A DNA stretch of 35,820 bases from Sanguibacter keddieii. GTDB lineage: Bacteria; Actinomycetota; Actinomycetes; Actinomycetales; Actinomycetaceae. The stretch is taken from positions 383-36,202 of the forward strand of contig NZ_JVOJ01000031.1 in the NCBI RefSeq assembly GCF_001064145.1, written 5' to 3'. Under the pieces are notes generated by a model that made no database searches, was not told the DNA's origin, and saw nothing but the letters and a program-made list of their open reading frames with translations. Below, piece after piece: positions 1,025-35,820 of the stretch. A program made the position numbers and the translations under genes. Position 1 is the first letter of the stretch; each line of letters starts with the position of its first letter.

Positions 1025-2925
1025 GCGCCGCCTGCGGCTGCGACGAGCCGACGACCAGTCCCGCGGACGAGGCAGAGGAGGCAGAGCGCCCGTGGTGGCG
1101 TGATCCCGGCCTGGTCGTGCCGATCCTCTCCGGCGTCGCGTTCGGCACCGGCCTGGCGCTGGAGTGGTCGGGGCTGCACATCGCGGCGCTGGTCGCGTTC
1201 TGGGCGGGCCTGCTGCTGGGCGCGTACACGTTCGTGCCCGGTGCGATCCGGAATCTTGTTGTGAAGCGCAAGCTCGGGATCGCGCTGCTGATGACGATCA
1301 GCGCCGTGGGCGCGGTGATCCTCGGCTACGTCGAGGAGGCGGCCGCGCTGGCGTTCCTCTTCTCGATCGCCGAGGCCCTGGAGGACAAGGCGATGGACCG
1401 CGCCCGCGGTGGGCTGCGCGCGCTTCTGAAGCTCGTGCCGGAGACCGCGACCGTGCTGCGCGACGGGACCTCCGCCTCGGTCCCGGCCAGGGAGATCGCC
1501 GTCGGCGACGTGCTGCTGGTCCGCCCTGGCGAGCGGGTCGCGACCGATGGGCTGGTCCGCTCGGGCCGGTCGAGCCTGGACACTTCGGCGATCACGGGTG
1601 AATCGATCCCGGTCGAGGTCGCGCCCGGAGAAGCGGTGTCGGCGGGCGCGATCAACAGCGCCGGCGTGCTGGAGGTCGAGGCGACCGCCGCGGGCACCGA
1701 CAACTCACTGACCACGATCGTGGAGCTGGTAGAGCAGGCCCAGGCCGAGAAGGGCGACCGAGCCCGGATCGCTGACCGGATCGCCCGCCCGCTGGTGCCC
1801 GGCGTGATGATCCTCGCCGTCCTCGTCGGCGTGCTCGGGTCCCTGCTCGGTGACCCGGAGACCTGGATCACCCGCGCCCTGGTCGTCCTCGTCGCGGCCA
1901 GCCCCTGCGCGCTGGCGATCGCGGTGCCCGTCACCGTGGTCTCCGCGATCGGCGCGGCGACCAAGTTCGGCGTCGTCATCAAGAGCGGGGCCGCCTTCGA
2001 GCGCCTCGGTGGCATCCGGCACCTGGCCGTGGATAAGACCGGCACTCTGACCCGCAACCGGCCCGAGGTAACCGCCATCGTCGCCGCCCATGGGTTCGAC
2101 GATGCGCAGGTGCTTGCTTGGGCTGCCGCCGTGGAGCAGCACTCGACGCACCCACTCGCCGCCGCCATCGCCGCCGCGGGCCGGGGAACCCCCGCCGCGC
2201 AGGCCGTGGCCGAGGAGGCCGGGCACGGCATCGGTGGCCTGGTCGACGGCCGCAGGGTGGCGGTGGGCAGTCCGCGCTGGATCGACGCCGGTCCGCTCAA
2301 GGCCCGGGTCGAGGACCTGGAGGCCGAGGGGCAGACCTGCGTGCTCGTCACCGTCGACGGCCTCCTGGCCGGGGCGATCGGCGTCCGCGACGAGCTGCGC
2401 CCCGAGGTCCCCGAGGTCGTGCGGACCCTGCGCGACCAGGGCGTCGAGGTGAGCATGCTCACCGGCGACAACTCCCGCACCGCTGCTGCGCTGGCGAAGC
2501 TGGCCGGGATCGGCGACGTGCACGCCGAGCTGCGTCCCGAGGACAAGGCTCGTATCGTCGCCGGGTTCTCGGAGACGCTGCCGACCGCGATGATCGGCGA
2601 TGGCATCAACGACGCGCCCGCCCTGGCCGGGGCGACCGTGGGCATCGCGATGGGCGCGACCGGCTCCGACGCAGCGATCGAGTCCGCCGACGTCGCCTTC
2701 ACCGGCCACGACCTCGGCCTCATCCCGCAGGCTCTGCGCCACGCCCGCCGCGGCGGCAGGATCATCAACCAGAACATCGTTCTGTCCTTGGCGATCATCA
2801 CTGTGCTGCTGCCGCTGGCGATCACCGGCGTGCTCGGCCTGGCAGCGGTCGTCCTCGTGCACGAGGTCGCCGAAGTCGTCGTCATCGCCAACGGACTGCG
2901 GGCTGCGCGTGCCCGCAAGCAATAG
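1021..2925 (+). CDS. P1B-type heavy-metal efflux ATPase (CtpG/CadA-like)
   Basis: A 634-residue metal-transporting ATPase, started at the GTG overlapping the cmtR stop. It carries TGES (192-195, actuator), SPC in the membrane (294-296), DKTGT with the phosphorylated Asp338 (338-342), a Thr-His-Pro nucleotide motif and GDGIND (526-531). A last-helix His-Glu pair is at 614-615. There is no N-terminal HMA metal-binding domain, only a short CGCD stretch at residues 5-8. SPC rather than CPC is a feature of the P1B-4 group. Pairing with CmtR parallels the mycobacterial cmtR-ctpG locus and points to Cd/Pb (possibly Co/Zn) export across the plasma membrane. Family is certain; metal choice is inferred. 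Confidence 0.92.
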   Translation: MSAACGCDEPTTSPADEAEEAERPWWRDPGLVVPILSGVAFGTGLALEWSGLHIAALVAFWAGLLLGAYTFVPGAIRNLVVKRKLGIALLMTISAVGAVILGYVEEAAALAFLFSIAEALEDKAMDRARGGLRALLKLVPETATVLRDGTSASVPAREIAVGDVLLVRPGERVATDGLVRSGRSSLDTSAITGESIPVEVAPGEAVSAGAINSAGVLEVEATAAGTDNSLTTIVELVEQAQAEKGDRARIADRIARPLVPGVMILAVLVGVLGSLLGDPETWITRALVVLVAASPCALAIAVPVTVVSAIGAATKFGVVIKSGAAFERLGGIRHLAVDKTGTLTRNRPEVTAIVAAHGFDDAQVLAWAAAVEQHSTHPLAAAIAAAGRGTPAAQAVAEEAGHGIGGLVDGRRVAVGSPRWIDAGPLKARVEDLEAEGQTCVLVTVDGLLAGAIGVRDELRPEVPEVVRTLRDQGVEVSMLTGDNSRTAAALAKLAGIGDVHAELRPEDKARIVAGFSETLPTAMIGDGINDAPALAGATVGIAMGATGSDAAIESADVAFTGHDLGLIPQALRHARRGGRIINQNIVLSLAIITVLLPLAITGVLGLAAVVLVHEVAEVVVIANGLRAARARKQ

Positions 2926-2953
2926 GTGTTCCGTCCAACGCCATAACTCAGAC

Positions 2954-3242
2954 ATGCGCTACGAGAACCCCCTCTATCTCGCCGAGGAGGCCGCAGCCCT
3001 GGACCTGATCGCGCGCGTACGCGGCAGACCCCTCGACGCTCATCAAGCAGCTGAGCCAGGACCGCGCACTCGCGGAGGCCGACACCCTCCTCCTGACGAT
3101 CCCCAACCAGCTCGGATTCGAGGAAAACTGGTCGATTATCCGCAACTTCGCCGAGTATGTGGCCCCCGCGCTCGGGTGGGAGTCGGCGCGCCCAGGCGTC
3201 CTCCCGACCGGCTACGACATCGACGAGGCCGTGGCCGAGTAG
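2954..3242 (+). pseudogene. Luciferase-type monooxygenase remnant (internally deleted)
   Basis: Two pieces of what looks like one flavin-dependent luciferase-like monooxygenase are joined out of frame. The ATG at 2954 starts MRYENPLYLAEEAAALDLIA, which matches the substrate-entry region of the family. From about 3015, in a different frame, the sequence encodes a C-terminal part (DPSTLIKQLSQDRALAEADT through ENWSIIRNFAEYVAPALG) ending at TAG 3240-3242. Roughly the whole middle of a 330-residue protein is missing, so it cannot be functional. It follows the metal ATPase directly and marks a deletion junction in the accessory segment. Confidence 0.7.
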
Positions 3243-3350
3243 CCGGTCCTGTGCGGTTCGGTGACTGGGAGTAGGCGACTCGGTTGTCGCATCTTGCCGG
3301 CTGTGATCGGGAGAGAGGTGTCAAGAGTCGATCAGCGCCTCGTCATTTAG

Positions 3351-25292: not shown

Positions 25293-26501
25293 CTACTTGG
25301 CGTGGTAGCGGGGGCTGGTGCCCAGGTGGATTGGTGTGGGGATGTCCGTGTCTTTCAGGATGCTTTCGTCGAGGCCTCGGTAGGTGTAGGTGGTGTCTCC
25401 GGCGATGTTTCGGGGGTCGGCGAGGCCGGCGAGGTATTGCTGGGATTCCTCGTTGGTGGGGCCGAGGCGGTCGTTGCCCTTGTCCATGATCGGGTTCTCG
25501 TCGGGGTACTGGGACGGATCGGTGTTGACCATGGCTCCCGGGTCTGCTCCACCGTATCCGATGTACTTGTTCCACCCGCTTTGATCGGTTCGGGCCGTCT
25601 TGGTGAGGAGTTGGAGGAGTTGGTTGCTGGTGGCGTTGGGCCACTTCTGTTTGGCCAGGGCCAGGAATCCGGCGACCAGGGGTGTGGCGTTGGAGGTGCC
25701 TCTCGTGCTGATGTTGGTGCCGGTCTCGTAGTTGTGGGCAATCATGGGGCCTCCCACGGCGGCCACGGTCACGCCTTTGCCCCACGAGGAGTATTCGGCG
25801 CGCTTACCGGAGGTGTCGATGGCGCTGACGCTCACCACACCGGACCACTTGCCATAGCTGTCAATAGTATCTTCCTCGTTGTCGTTTCCGGTGCCGCTCA
25901 CCACGATGACACCCAGCGCGTTGGCGCGGGCAATCGCCCACTTCACCGCGTCACTCGTGTCATCACTTGTTGCAGAGATGCTGATGATTTGTGCGCCGTC
26001 GGTGATGGCCTGGTTGATCAGCCATTCGGGCTCGTCGAGCGTGTTGCCGTGGTGGCCTCGGCAATCGGACTCCGCCTTGTCTCCGTCCTTAGGGAAGGAG
26101 GTTCGGTAGGCAAGGAGTGTTGCGTCGGGGGCGACGCCGTACTCTTTGGAGACCAGGAGCGAGGCCATGGCCGTGCCGTGGCTCTTGGAGTTGGCCCCCG
26201 ATGTGACGGTGCACGGTGTTTTGTCGATGACGGTGGCGCCTGCCAGCTCGGGCGCGCTGGTGTCGACCTCGCCGTCGATGAGGGCGATGGTCACGCCCTT
26301 GCCGGTGTAGCCCTTCGCGCGCGCCTGATCGAGATGGTAGTAGGCGAAATGAGGCTGCTCGGCCGCCGTGATCGGGTCGGCGGCGTGCGCGGGCGCGGCG
26401 GGCAGGGCGATGGCCCCGGCCGCCAGGGCCAGGGTCATCGCACACACACCCGCGAGCCGCAGCCGCCGACGGCGACCGGACGTGTGGTTCGTGGTCACCA
26501 T
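25293..26501 (-). CDS. Secreted S8 subtilisin-like protease (mycosin-like)
   Basis: A 402-residue protease. The signal peptide runs from GRRRRLRLAGVC to cleavage after AHA (residue 40). Catalytic triad: Asp76 (ALIDGEVD), His108 (SKSHGTAMAS) and Ser270 (RGTSNATPLVAGF), with oxyanion Asn206 (SGTGNDN). The order and short spacing resemble type VII secretion mycosins, but no C-terminal transmembrane anchor is present, so it should be released. The start at 26501 is preferred because it gives a normal signal peptide and overlaps the upstream stop by 7 nt (coupled); ATG 26516 is an alternative. It probably processes proteins secreted by the adjacent genes. Confidence 0.9.
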   Translation of the reverse strand: MVTTNHTSGRRRRLRLAGVCAMTLALAAGAIALPAAPAHAADPITAAEQPHFAYYHLDQARAKGYTGKGVTIALIDGEVDTSAPELAGATVIDKTPCTVTSGANSKSHGTAMASLLVSKEYGVAPDATLLAYRTSFPKDGDKAESDCRGHHGNTLDEPEWLINQAITDGAQIISISATSDDTSDAVKWAIARANALGVIVVSGTGNDNEEDTIDSYGKWSGVVSVSAIDTSGKRAEYSSWGKGVTVAAVGGPMIAHNYETGTNISTRGTSNATPLVAGFLALAKQKWPNATSNQLLQLLTKTARTDQSGWNKYIGYGGADPGAMVNTDPSQYPDENPIMDKGNDRLGPTNEESQQYLAGLADPRNIAGDTTYTYRGLDESILKDTDIPTPIHLGTSPRYHAK

Positions 26502-28171
26502 TGGCGAGGATCCCATCCGTCGTCCTTCTGGGAGGCGGGCTTCAGGTCCTTGTCCGAGCCGTAGGTCTGCGACATCGGATTCACGTAGCCCGGGGGCAGC
26601 GCATCGTCCTCGTCGTCCTCGAACTTGAAGGCCGTGTACTTGCGCCGCTTGCCCTTCTTGTCATCCTTGCCGCCACCGGCACCCGCGCCGGCACCCATGA
26701 AGCCGCCCATGCCGGGCCGCCCGGCCGCGCCCGAACCGCCAGCGGAGCTGCCGGCGCCCGTCTTGCCTGCTGCGCCGGACATGCCGCCCGCGCCGTTCGT
26801 GCCCGTCAGGCCGGTCGTCCCGCCCGACGCGCTCGCGCTACCGGGCAGACCACCGGAGCCAAGGCCTCCGACGGAGGACGATCCCCCGCGCAGCCCGCCG
26901 AGGCCGCCCGCGCCCAGGCCACCACGACCGGAGGCTCCCAGGCCGCCCGCGCCTAGCCCGCCACGACCGGAGGCTCCAAGACCGCCCGCGCCGCCGCGAC
27001 CCAACGCGCCCAGCGAACCGGCACCCAGGCCCGACCCACCGCGCGCTGCGAGGGCAGCCGCGCCGAGAGCACCCGCACCGAGGACGCCCGCACCGAGGGC
27101 ACCCGCACCCGCCAGGCTCGTACGGCCGGAGGCGTCGAAGCGAGTGGAGGGACCCCCGTTAATGTTCCACAGAGGATGGTGGCGATCGCTTGGAGGTGCG
27201 GGGGTGTAGCCGCCGCGAGTGAGGCCGTTAGCGTAGCGCTCGCCACCGATGCGGCTGTGCAGCAGGTCAATGCCCATCAGGTCCTCGGGGTCGGTGATGG
27301 GGTTGCTGCGGCTCCCCAGCTCGCCGTCCTTGTTGAACTTGTCGGGGATGCGCTGGGACTGGAGCCTGCGTAGCTTCTCGGCGTCCGTTTCCTGTGCGTT
27401 CGGATCGTTAAAGCCGTTCGGGTAAGCACCGGAGTTCGGATCGCGCAGGTCCGATCGACCGTAGTCGGTGTCCCTGTTGCCTGGATACACGCCAGGATCG
27501 TGAGGTGAGACTCCCTTGTGACCCTGGTCGAGTTGATCGGCGACGGACGGATTGGAAGGCTGGGGGAGATCACCCGGGTCCCAAATCTTGTTGCGACTCT
27601 TCAACTCCTCCTGCATCTCCTTGATGCGCGCCGCGTTGTTCGCGAGCCCCTGCATCGAGTCGTTGAGCCGCTGGAGGATATCCGTCGAGCTGGCTTCTCG
27701 CTGGTTGTTGGCTTGGGCCGCGATCGCGTCGTAGACGGCAGCACCGGTTGAAGCGACCGCGTTATATGCCATTCCGACGAGGCCGTACTGCTTCATGACC
27801 GGGACCGTCACCTCAGCCACGTCGCGCAGTTTATCCAGCCTGGCGTCGACGAGGACGGGAGAGAGCATCTCCGCCTCTTCGCGCGCGTGCTGCATGACGC
27901 GACGCATCTCGACCTCGACCTGCGACGTGGCGAGGTACGAAGCCCTCCAGAGCCTGAGGCGGTGCTCCGCGTCCTCGAGCCACTTGTCGATGGCGTCGCC
28001 GGTTTGGCCCTGGAATCCCTGGTATTCCCGGAAATGCTGAATGTACTCTTCGGCATCCTTCATCGCCTCGAGCGTCGCCTTGTGCTTGCTGTCGTAGTCG
28101 GACAGGGATTCGTTCGCCTTCGCGTCCTCCACGAAACGCATGAGGCGCTGGTACATGGGGCTGTGAACCAC
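26495..28171 (-). CDS. Large type VII secretion-associated, Gly-rich repeat protein
   Basis: A 558-residue protein. GTG 28171 is supported by AAAGGA 7 nt upstream. Residues 1-210 are helical and charged (WLEDAEHRLRLWRASYLATS), like the helical domain of T7SS substrates. A Pro/Asn/Asp-rich linker follows (210-350), then a Gly/Ala-rich low-complexity region (about 360-500) with 13-residue GLGASGRGGLGAG repeats. The C-terminal tail is charged (KDDKKGKRRKYTAFKFEDDE) and ends in Trp. It has no signal peptide. Location between the WXG/EspC-like gene and the mycosin-like protease suggests a PPE- or Esp-type exported protein; that function is inferred. Confidence 0.75.
   Translation of the reverse strand: MVHSPMYQRLMRFVEDAKANESLSDYDSKHKATLEAMKDAEEYIQHFREYQGFQGQTGDAIDKWLEDAEHRLRLWRASYLATSQVEVEMRRVMQHAREEAEMLSPVLVDARLDKLRDVAEVTVPVMKQYGLVGMAYNAVASTGAAVYDAIAAQANNQREASSTDILQRLNDSMQGLANNAARIKEMQEELKSRNKIWDPGDLPQPSNPSVADQLDQGHKGVSPHDPGVYPGNRDTDYGRSDLRDPNSGAYPNGFNDPNAQETDAEKLRRLQSQRIPDKFNKDGELGSRSNPITDPEDLMGIDLLHSRIGGERYANGLTRGGYTPAPPSDRHHPLWNINGGPSTRFDASGRTSLAGAGALGAGVLGAGALGAAALAARGGSGLGAGSLGALGRGGAGGLGASGRGGLGAGGLGASGRGGLGAGGLGGLRGGSSSVGGLGSGGLPGSASASGGTTGLTGTNGAGGMSGAAGKTGAGSSAGGSGAAGRPGMGGFMGAGAGAGGGKDDKKGKRRKYTAFKFEDDEDDALPPGYVNPMSQTYGSDKDLKPASQKDDGWDPRQW
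26902..26979 (-). repeat. 39-bp tandem repeat in the Gly-rich region
   Basis: Two units (26902-26940, 26941-26979) with a few substitutions encode 13 residues each. Further degenerate units flank them. Slippage here could change protein length between strains. Confidence 0.75.
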
Positions 28172-28191
28172 TGGAATATCCTTTCGTGGGT

Positions 28192-28650
28192 TCAGAACTC
28201 GGAGCTACCGGCTGCGTTCGGGTCGGTATTGTCCTGGGACTCCGACGGTGATGTCTGGTATGCCGTACCGGATGAACCTGCTCCGGTACCCGCTCCCGAT
28301 CCGGCGGCGGCGACGGCAGGATCCTGGGCCATGGCTGCGTTCGTCTGCGAGAAATAACCCGCGTTCTGCTCCTCCATTCGCCTGAAAGACTCCTCGGTCT
28401 CGTCGACCTTCGTGCCGAAGTTGAGGACGTGCTCTTGCTCGCCATTGAAGCCGTCACGGAGCGTGAAGTATGACTCCTGCAGTGCGCGGCGAGCAGCGTC
28501 GACGCCGGCCTCCTCGCCCCACACGGATTCAACTTGTGCGTCTGCGAAGGTGTCGATGCCATCCGCGGCAGTCTTGAGAGACTCAGCACCCTTCGTCGCG
28601 TCCTGACGCGTCTGATCGTGCTTATTTGAGTCGAAGCTTACGTCGCTCAC
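28192..28650 (-). CDS. EspC/WXG100-like type VII secretion substrate
   Basis: A 152-residue protein. GTG 28650 is preceded by GGAGG with a 5-nt spacer, which rules out the longer frame start at 28671. The first 105 residues form two long helices joined at VESVWGEEAG, a WG turn like that of WXG100/EspC-type proteins, followed by ALQESYFTLRDGFNGEQEHV and an EETEESFRRMEEQN-type second helix. The tail is Gly/Ser/Asp-rich and disordered. No signal peptide is present, consistent with export by a type VII system. It leads the three-gene unit with the large Gly-rich protein and the protease. Assignment is by architecture. Confidence 0.7.
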   Translation of the reverse strand: MSDVSFDSNKHDQTRQDATKGAESLKTAADGIDTFADAQVESVWGEEAGVDAARRALQESYFTLRDGFNGEQEHVLNFGTKVDETEESFRRMEEQNAGYFSQTNAAMAQDPAVAAAGSGAGTGAGSSGTAYQTSPSESQDNTDPNAAGSSEF

Positions 28651-28701
28651 GAAAACCTCCAGGCGAAACAAGCGCAGGCGCGGCCTGCAGACATTAATGA
28701 G

Positions 28702-34347: not shown

Positions 34348-34986
34348 ATGGCACGAATCCTCTGCGTCGACAACTACGACTCGTTCGTCTTCACGATCGT
34401 GGGCTACCTGCGCCACCTGGGTGCGATCGTAGACGTCGTGCGCAATGACGTCGTGGATCCCGCCTGGTTCGAGGCCGGCTACGACGGCGTCCTCATCTCC
34501 CCCGGACCCGGCGACCCCAAGAGCGCCGGCGCCTCCCTGCAGACCATCGCCGACTGTGCCGAACGCGGCATCCCGATGCTGGGCGTGTGCCTGGGGCACC
34601 AGGCCCTCGGCGAGCTTTTCGGCGCGACCGTCGGGCACGCGCCCGAGCTTATGCACGGCAAAACCTCCGTCATCACGCACGACGGGCGCGGCGTCTTCGA
34701 GGGCGTGCCCTCGCCGCTGACCGTCACCCGCTACCACTCGCTGACGATCGACCCCGCGACCATGCCTGACGAGCTCGAAGTCTCCGCGACTACCGAGTCC
34801 GGCATCATCATGGGCGCGCGCCACCGCTCCCTGCCCCTCGAAGGCGTCCAGTTCCACCCCGAATCCGTCATGACCCAGTCCGGGCACCTCATGTTCGCCA
34901 ACTGGCTAGCCGCCTGCGGCGACGCTGGCGCACGCGAGCGGGCCGTGTCCCTGAAGCCCGTCGTCGCGGAGCGTTTCACGCTGTAG
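34348..34986 (+). CDS. pabA: Class I glutamine amidotransferase (PabA/TrpG)
   Basis: A 212-residue glutaminase subunit. Cys81 (GVCLGHQ), His170 and Glu172 (GVQFHPESV) form the triad; ISPGPGDP and VTRYHSL are typical of the PabA/TrpG group. AAAGGA lies 6 nt before the ATG, which decides the start. It supplies ammonia to PabB for aminodeoxychorismate (folate) or to TrpE for anthranilate; sequence alone does not separate them. Position after DUF881/sortase matches the conserved trpG/pabA next to crgA and pknB in Actinobacteria. Here pknB does not follow. Confidence 0.93.
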   Translation: MARILCVDNYDSFVFTIVGYLRHLGAIVDVVRNDVVDPAWFEAGYDGVLISPGPGDPKSAGASLQTIADCAERGIPMLGVCLGHQALGELFGATVGHAPELMHGKTSVITHDGRGVFEGVPSPLTVTRYHSLTIDPATMPDELEVSATTESGIIMGARHRSLPLEGVQFHPESVMTQSGHLMFANWLAACGDAGARERAVSLKPVVAERFTL

Positions 34987-35106: not shown

Positions 35107-35192
35107 ATCCGGATAGGTTATGCGCATCCGGATAGCTTATTAACCTATCCGGATGTCGATAACCTATCCGGATGTCGATAACCTATCCAGAT
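35107..35192. repeat. Site array A: five copies of a 14-bp site at 19-bp period
   Basis: Two forward copies of ATCCGGATAGSTTA (35107, 35126) and three reverse copies TAACCTATCCRGAT (35141, 35160, 35179), the last with A in place of G. Within each orientation the period is exactly 19 bp, and the two orientations face each other over a 1-bp centre at 35140. The regular spacing suggests binding by a multimeric protein. The stretch 34987-35106 shows nothing I can support. Confidence 0.9.
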
Positions 35193-35247
35193 CGTTGGGC
35201 ACCGCAGCCCGCTCTCTTCACATTCGTGCTCGTCAACTGGGGGCAGT

Positions 35248-35323
35248 GGGGGTTTTGCACTACATGAGGTCCTGGGAGCATGCGTCGCCGGCGTGTCGGA
35301 GGCTCGTGTCGTGCAAAACCCCC
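35248..35323. repeat. Long-spaced perfect inverted repeat
   Basis: GGGGGTTTTGCAC (35248-35260) and GTGCAAAACCCCC (35311-35323) pair perfectly over 13 bp with 50 bp between. It may be a terminator-like stem or the ends of a tiny element. Confidence 0.8.
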
Positions 35324-35373
35324 CGTTTGATGCGAGTTTCTTATGGTGCGGCCGCGAAAGTTCTTGTTCCTTT

Positions 35374-35455
35374 GTGGTGTTACACCACTTAGGGAGCATG
35401 ACACCCCTTCCGAGCTGGTGCAATGCTCCCTAAATGGTGCAATGCCCCCTAATAG
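35374..35455. repeat. Palindrome and TAGGGAGCAT/GGTGCAATGC repeats
   Basis: GTGGTGT-T-ACACCAC (35374-35388) is a perfect palindrome, followed by TTAGGGAGCAT (35389-35399) which pairs with ATGCTCCCTAA (35423-35433). GGTGCAATGCYCCCTAA occurs twice at a 19-bp period (35417, 35436). No coding potential is visible. Confidence 0.85.
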
Positions 35456-35524
35456 GTGTAGCGCGTTGTGAATGCAGGTGGGCGTGTCAGCTACGGTGCC
35501 GCAGATGTGCTTGTTGGCGGGTCT

Positions 35525-35591
35525 ATCCGGATAGGTTACGAGCATCCGGATAGCTTATTAACCTATCCGGATGTCGATAACCTATCCAGAT
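35525..35591. repeat. Site array B: four copies of the 14-bp site at 19-bp period
   Basis: Forward copies at 35525 and 35544, reverse copies at 35559 and 35578 (again ending with the A variant). The layout equals array A minus one reverse unit, displaced by 418 bp. Period is 19 bp. The sequence between array B and the transposase stop (35592-35642) probably contains the insertion-sequence end. Confidence 0.9.
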
Positions 35592-35642
35592 CGGGTCAAG
35601 TCCTGTGGAGTGGTGTAATCGTTTTGTGTCCTTCGGGTTGGG

Positions 35643-35820
35643 TTATGCGCTGAGTTGGAGTGGGGGGTCCTCCTGTTGGGTGGGTTGGGGTGTGAGTCGT
35701 GATTTGGTGAGGATGTCGAGGCTGAGGTAGCGTCGGCCTTCGGCCCATTCGTCGTTTTGTTCGGCGAGGACGGCTCCGACCAGGCGGATGATGGCCTGGC
35801 GGTTGGGGAAGATCCCCACG
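35643..35820 (-). mobile_element. IS256-family transposase, C-terminal end (runs off the window)
   Basis: The reading frame on the minus strand ends at 35643 (TAA) and is open to the window edge. It encodes [35 protein letters not shown] and a Gln/Pro-rich tail ending LQLSA, which matches the C-terminal end of IS256/Mutator-type transposases (DEWxEGRRY motif). The catalytic DDE residues lie outside the window. The inverted-repeat end is expected between about 35595 and 35642, but I cannot delimit it. It interrupts the neighbourhood downstream of pabA, where pknB would be expected. Confidence 0.85.

Follow-up and report, generated by a model that had tools for sequence, protein, structure and literature searches.

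The 35,820-nucleotide stretch of DNA analysed here (the window) carries near its right end a pabA/trpG-type amidotransferase gene (34348..34986, + strand; named by eye and in an earlier note on this DNA), which served below as control locus and synteny anchor. It is followed by two arrays of a 14-bp site, hereafter family 1, neither of which was assigned a strand. Array A (35107..35192) consists of five sites in the order FF|RRR, at 35107 and 35126 (+) and at 35141, 35160 and 35179 (-), and array B (35525..35591) of four in the order FF|RR, at 35525 and 35544 (+) and at 35559 and 35578 (-); the last site of each has one mismatch, and the same variant, ATCTGGAT, closes both. Next to array B lies the C-terminus of an IS256/Mutator-family transposase (35646..35819, - strand; PF00872, E 6.1e-6), a bystander as far as the arrays are concerned. 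The layout of forward copies followed by facing reverse copies, the shared terminal variant and the location beside pabA and an IS256 element, all reported in the earlier note, were borne out by these positions. Its strict 19-bp period held for same-strand sites, which are exactly 19 bp apart, and broke down over the inward-facing centre, where the step is 15 bp, so that the period is not kept throughout. At up to three mismatches the window contains 12 matches to the site against 1.74 expected, nine of them within the two arrays, and none of 100 shuffles reached 12.

Two further repeats between A and B had been overlooked, both again without strand assignment. The first (family 3; 35248..35324) is an inverted repeat of the form GGGGGTTTTGCAC...CGGCGTGTCG...GTGCAAAACCCCCC, and the second (family 2; 35389..35452) is an array of GGTGYAATGCYCCCTAA sites with a 19-bp step, located at 35389-35405 (-, two mismatches), 35417-35433 (+) and 35436-35452 (+). 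The 485-bp stretch therefore holds repeats of all three DUF559 paralogs described below. Elsewhere in the window, inspection by eye revealed a P-type metal ATPase adjoining an ArsR-like regulator (958-2925; from ORF translations) and a subtilisin/mycosin-like serine protease with small and glycine-rich ORFs next to it, which may be related to type VII secretion (25293-28671).

Family-1 sites were found dispersed over the 2.36-Mb genome, with 134 copies at up to two mismatches (68 on one strand and 66 on the other; reversed control, 0 and 6). At least 27 arrays of three or more units occur in this Schaalia-like genome (20 stretches examined), 23 of which are purely forward-then-reverse, one reverse only and three mixed. 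Among their steps, 94 of 98 between same-strand neighbours measure 19 bp and 21 of 27 from forward to reverse measure 15 bp; a forward-to-reverse step of 34 bp, seen in five arrays, is what would be expected if one unit had decayed. Four named relatives (Actinomyces bouchesdurhonensis, Schaalia sp. ORNL0103, Actinomyces sp. HPA0247 and the Xylanimonas cellulosilytica 352_XCEL record) showed the same geometry: across 33 arrays from these, 126 of 128 same-strand steps are 19 bp and all 30 forward-to-reverse steps 15 bp. The arrays are accordingly neither unique to this strain nor variable in spacing among relatives. The core pattern of family 1 was present in 12 of the 35 genomes of the genus, the window's own included, with 1 to 44 centres each. 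None of 24 arrays overlapped an ORF picked by a crude caller by more than 20 bp. At two places in the genome, on contig 43 (L075:2964-3106) and in the window (35593-35820), a family-1 array is adjoined by the same end of an IS256-type element.

The statement in the earlier note that no gene in the region explains the arrays is correct locally and fails genome-wide. On contig 37, three family-1 arrays surround a gene encoding a 360-residue protein with weak matches to DUF559 and REase MTES_1575. A search of the genus with this protein gave 129 matches in 33 of the 35 genomes. Close relatives of the gene (F1; 60-100% identity) were restricted to nine genomes, all of them among the 12 that bear arrays, and the 23 array-less genomes had no match at 60-100% identity, just more distant ones or none (Fisher p 3e-6 for co-occurrence, related genomes being counted as independent). 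The F1 gene is single-copy (one match of at least 60% identity per genome) and occupies the same locus in all nine genomes, as befits vertical inheritance; this syntenic home locus reads sigR-rsrA-[arrays-gene-arrays]-hydrolase, the sigma factor and the hydrolase being identified by Pfam and the rsrA-like small gene, devoid of any Pfam match, by eye. At all nine loci the unit of the family-1 arrays is repeated on either side of the gene, and confinement of the gene to a single home locus speaks against its frequent copying. Estimates of dN/dS were about 0.12-0.15 in the three usable pairs. Three genomes with arrays and no F1 gene (G010, G019 and G020) carry a solo array exactly at the home locus, with both flanks preserved. 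Since G020 groups among the gene-bearing species by pabA and murB identity, recombination between the flanking arrays most likely removed the F1 gene there.

Sequence matches and conserved active-site-like residues place the protein among DUF559/Vsr-like nuclease-domain proteins of PD-(D/E)XK type. Residues E221, D252, E263, D265 and K269, which resemble an active site, are invariant across 30 aligned proteins, and Pfam matches at E up to 0.1 were obtained to DUF559 in 24 and to MTES_1575 REase in 22 of these 30, the members displayed being mostly below the curated cut-off. The N-terminal part has no credible Pfam match, and no sequence relative was found in the PDB. A low-confidence model (mean pLDDT 37) arranges the C-terminal part in the order alpha-beta-beta-beta-alpha-beta-alpha, with only middling agreement in fold comparison.

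The window's own genome (G000) has exactly three DUF559 matches, and each of the three genes is flanked by its own repeats, which are also dispersed. The second gene (contig 20) sits between arrays of GGTGYAATGCYCCCTAA units with a 19-bp step, and 33 dispersed sites of this unit were counted at up to two mismatches (reversed control, 0). The third (contig 34) is flanked by two copies of the GGGGGTTTTGCAC...CCCCC inverted repeat with its CGGCGTGTCG core. The family-3 element pattern was detected in nine of the 35 genomes, all nine with an F3 gene 73-100% identical to that of G000. Searching the 126 DUF559 stretches of the genus with the third protein revealed an F3 gene in a tenth genome, G001 (84% complete; 63% identical), which is interrupted after 193 residues by a stretch of N and is adjoined by a family-3 element missed by the pattern. 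Behind this stretch of N (L325, G001:C8:179915-183364) the sequence looks unrelated, probably as the result of a scaffold join. Family 2 is looser than families 1 and 3, its array pattern being found in eight of 35 genomes and its gene clade in just two (G000 and G021); four of the other six array-bearing genomes have a gene of the sister clade.

The association was also evaluated over all 126 genus stretches holding a DUF559 match, by recording whether a 10-mer was present at least twice on each side. Shared flank repeats were found at 49 of the 126 loci and at two of 60 control loci (murB 0/30, pabA 2/30; p 4e-8), and three or more copies on each side at 20 of 126 and none of 60 (p 3e-4), related loci being counted as independent in both comparisons. 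The remaining 77 of 126 loci had no shared flank repeat under the test, and 10 of the 36 weakest DUF559 matches passed it, some probably by chance; at most two of 140 shuffled flanks passed in each genus set. A tree was built from 66 of the first 70 proteins, the other four being short or containing stops; wherever units were found, members of a clade have them in common. These clade-specific units and their steps include GGATAGG (19 bp), GCATTGGGGCAGG (20 bp), GCGCTGCACC (19 bp), CCAGGTTTCC (31 bp) and CTGCGGTTTC (42 bp), among others. In the rest of the order, seven of 29 loci passed the two-copy test, some probably by chance. The clearest case outside the genus, and one that behaves alike, is G122, from another family of the order, in which only the nuclease part of the protein was matched. 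There, ACATGCCACA pairs occur on either side of the gene, and the pattern of pairs with a 20-bp step gave 20 hits in the genome, none in two other genomes and none with the reversed control. Several individual loci also deserve mention. Very long CTGCGGTTTC arrays, mostly with 42-bp steps, lie on either side of a DUF559 gene in G013 (L173:73-1183 and 2620-3334). In G010 (L147, G010:C2:813736-816866), a tandem duplication is suggested by two DUF559 matches of the same score that lie on one strand at a distance of about 2.1 kb. G023 has a pair of partial DUF559 genes, both located about 1.2 kb from a contig start (L162 on contig 20 and L179 on contig 27), which are either broken copies or one gene split by assembly.

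Comparison of loci among relatives pointed to turnover of arrays and of the DNA between them. At the pabA locus, G023 and G026 have the same order array - family 3 - family 2 - array as the window, and G020 combines a family-3-like element with family 2 and one array; a single array was found in G021, G001 and G006 and a decayed one in G013, G018 has no array, and G005 has other DNA directly behind the gene. A pair of HTH-nucleotidyltransferase and HEPN (HepT-like) genes was noticed between family-1 arrays at L079:11743-12758. At the murB locus, G000 and G005 have arrays on both sides of such a pair and G021 and G020 have arrays next to it (near side covered only), whereas G023, G026, G013 and G018 have a single array without the pair and G010 and G019 the pair without arrays. 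Between G005 and G006, some arrays are common and one was lost with a half-site remaining. Only G006 has a 257-bp array-bearing stretch bounded by AGCCTGYG on either side; these 8-bp edge matches fit insertion or deletion alike, and another 'empty' site is a deletion remnant. From these comparisons it follows that arrays have been gained, lost and resolved to solo copies.

The linkage between arrays and DUF559 genes is strong: the F1 gene lies between copies of its own arrays, gene and arrays co-occur among genomes, and the paralogs are paired in the same way with other repeat families. Arrays A and B probably belong to a set of 27 or more dispersed arrays that are cognate to the product of the single-copy contig-37 gene, a nuclease-domain protein with a population of recombinogenic sites of its own, comparable to RAYT/REPIN. 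Binding, cleavage and copying by the protein are inferences, and a possible scheme is as follows. The variable N-terminal part would read the 14-bp units as double-stranded DNA, and protomers would align at 19-bp steps along both arms. The two innermost protomers might then meet head to head at the TTA-N-TAA centre, pairing two C-terminal nuclease domains, which could cleave or nick this centre. As the site is repaired from, or recombines with, a second array, arrays and the intervening DNA would be copied, expanded, fused or deleted. Solo arrays, and the loss or exchange of the gene and of the toxin-antitoxin-like cassette, would be outcomes of such events. Free cutting of all arrays should be lethal, so the nuclease would have to nick, be restrained or be silenced.

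Another explanation is that the DUF559 protein is a DNA-binding regulator with the architecture of an AbiEi-like antitoxin, the arrays beside its gene being autoregulatory operators, the dispersed ones a regulon or silencer/nucleoid-organising sites, and the nuclease fold incidental. Actinobacterial DUF559 proteins often bear an AbiEi-like N-terminus. The relevant passages of PMC7319586 describe sets of 23-bp inverted repeats to which S. agalactiae AbiEi and M. tuberculosis Rv2827c each bind at the promoter of their own gene. The presence of arrays on both sides of the gene would agree with this, as would the fact that some arrays keep their place between species, at the pabA and murB loci. 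However, the gaps that hold arrays offer a poor operator layout, since only two of 20 are divergent and 10 of 20 convergent, against two convergent among 55 other gaps (crude ORF calls, home locus left out). Invariant active-site-like residues and a copy number swinging from 1 to 44 centres among the 12 array-bearing genomes also argue against a mere regulator. Furthermore, no AbiEi match was found by Pfam among the 30 members, and next to the gene lie a sigma-factor gene, a Pfam-less small gene and a hydrolase gene, for which reasons an AbiE type IV toxin-antitoxin system was rejected as well. Regulation by itself is regarded as an unlikely account of the arrays.

It is very unlikely that some other mobile element, be it IS256 or a RAYT-type Y1 transposase, accounts for the arrays as its MITE or selfish repeat, with DUF559 genes hitch-hiking and tolerating intergenic sites. 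Their dispersed, intergenic occurrence, the IS256-type end abutting array B and the contig-43 array, and the HTH-nucleotidyltransferase/HEPN pair as other cargo between arrays would suit such an origin. Nevertheless, hitch-hiking does not predict that three paralogs of one genome should each reside in a different repeat family. Y1_Tnp (PF01797) was found in none of the 35 genus genomes, while the control search was positive in five of 14 named genomes (E. coli and four others). The suggestion that the array units are ends of the nearby IS256 fits poorly too: the IS merely adjoins array B, starts past it and, as judged by eye, contains no array unit, and relatives show the same order of arrays behind pabA without an adjoining IS.

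The inverted layout and the preference for convergent gaps could also suggest hairpins, in RNA or as cruciforms, that serve for example as bidirectional terminators where genes converge, but this is highly improbable. Spacers that face each other over the centre show less complementarity than shuffled pairs do (66 of 200 positions in 40 arrays; shuffle mean 98.2, sd 6.4), as do the second units (461 of 560; mean 475.1, sd 6.0), the bases at position 11 clash (C-C or G-G) in 35 of 43 family-1 centres, and an Rfam scan of the window gave no match. Complementarity below that of shuffles favours a protein acting on duplex DNA and sets family-1 arrays apart from REP hairpins. Of the possibilities offered in the earlier note, binding sites for an oligomeric protein thus make the best reading, given the rigid spacing, the two-fold layout and the lack of any sign of hairpin pairing. 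Plasmid iterons are regular direct-repeat sites at about 19-22 bp, and the 19-bp steps are iteron-like; yet an iteron origin, that is, one array beside a rep gene, or a plasmid centromere or partition site can hardly be reconciled with at least 27 two-fold arrays dispersed over many contigs and with no rep or par protein among ten array-neighbour proteins scanned in Pfam. The ordinary readings (IS end, origin, terminator) fail.

The preferred reading, a DUF559 nuclease with its own dispersed arrays, can be set against several known systems. To our knowledge, REP/RAYT is the model for a resident nuclease linked to a dispersed repeat population. The pertinent passages of PMC2817692 and PMC8049555 describe RAYT as a single-copy gene that is passed on vertically, with inverted REPs on either side and further REPs scattered elsewhere. 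According to these passages, several gene-repeat families exist, repeats are also found in gene-less genomes, and REPs are palindromes maintained by complementary changes. To the extent of those descriptions, the DUF559-array system shares the single-copy vertical nuclease gene between cognate repeats, the many dispersed intergenic copies, the several gene-repeat families and the repeats in gene-less genomes. In contrast, the nuclease is of PD-(D/E)XK/Vsr type, RAYT being an IS200/IS605-related Y1 HUH enzyme, and the repeats are units at equal steps around one centre instead of palindromes kept by complementarity (tested for family 1). The system therefore works like RAYT/REPIN without being a member, and looks like an undescribed counterpart of REP/RAYT repeat systems. 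EDxHD (Vsr-like) homing endonucleases, exemplified by I-Bth0305I, differ in that the gene here lies between two complete arrays, not splitting one site, and in that 1-44 array centres occur per genome. No relative was confirmed in a search of viral_contigs.

Precedents for the two putative activities come from separate proteins. Caulobacter VsrA (CCNA_02930), a protein of the PD-(D/E)XK superfamily that likewise has a DUF559 domain, is held responsible for an SOS response and came to light through a solitary methyltransferase; the passage in question makes no mention of linked arrays (PMC12907096). Within what that passage covers, VsrA is the best precedent for a DUF559 protein acting on the chromosome (PMC12907096). 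For the binding half, the best precedent is the AbiEi-type binding of several inverted repeats at the protein's own promoter; AbiEi and Rv2827c, in the portion of the source referred to, bind multiple inverted repeats beside their own genes (PMC7319586). The present system differs from them in its dispersed arrays, its nuclease domain, the lack of an AbiEi Pfam match and the lack of a recognised adjacent toxin.

No description of DUF559-linked arrays was found in the literature searched. Whether the findings extend to actinobacterial DUF559 nucleases at large is evenly balanced in our judgement. These may make up a large and so far undescribed group of orthogonal nuclease-array systems, each paralog having its own specificity and one cell harbouring several. 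Every resident gene would maintain throughout the genome a population of iterated, two-fold duplex sites, at which the recombination that it provokes would spread and renew arrays and swap the cargo lying between them, a non-HUH counterpart of RAYT/REPIN. If true, a second, unrelated enzyme would share the anatomy of REP/RAYT, implying that such pairs arise repeatedly. It would also provide a likely function for DUF559, a common protein family of unknown function, and many natural protein-site pairs, the unit sequence of which differs by protein clade and which would be useful to decipher recognition. Finally, it would account for intergenic repeats in a tractable oral genus, where array gain, array loss and cargo exchange could be tested by gene deletion.
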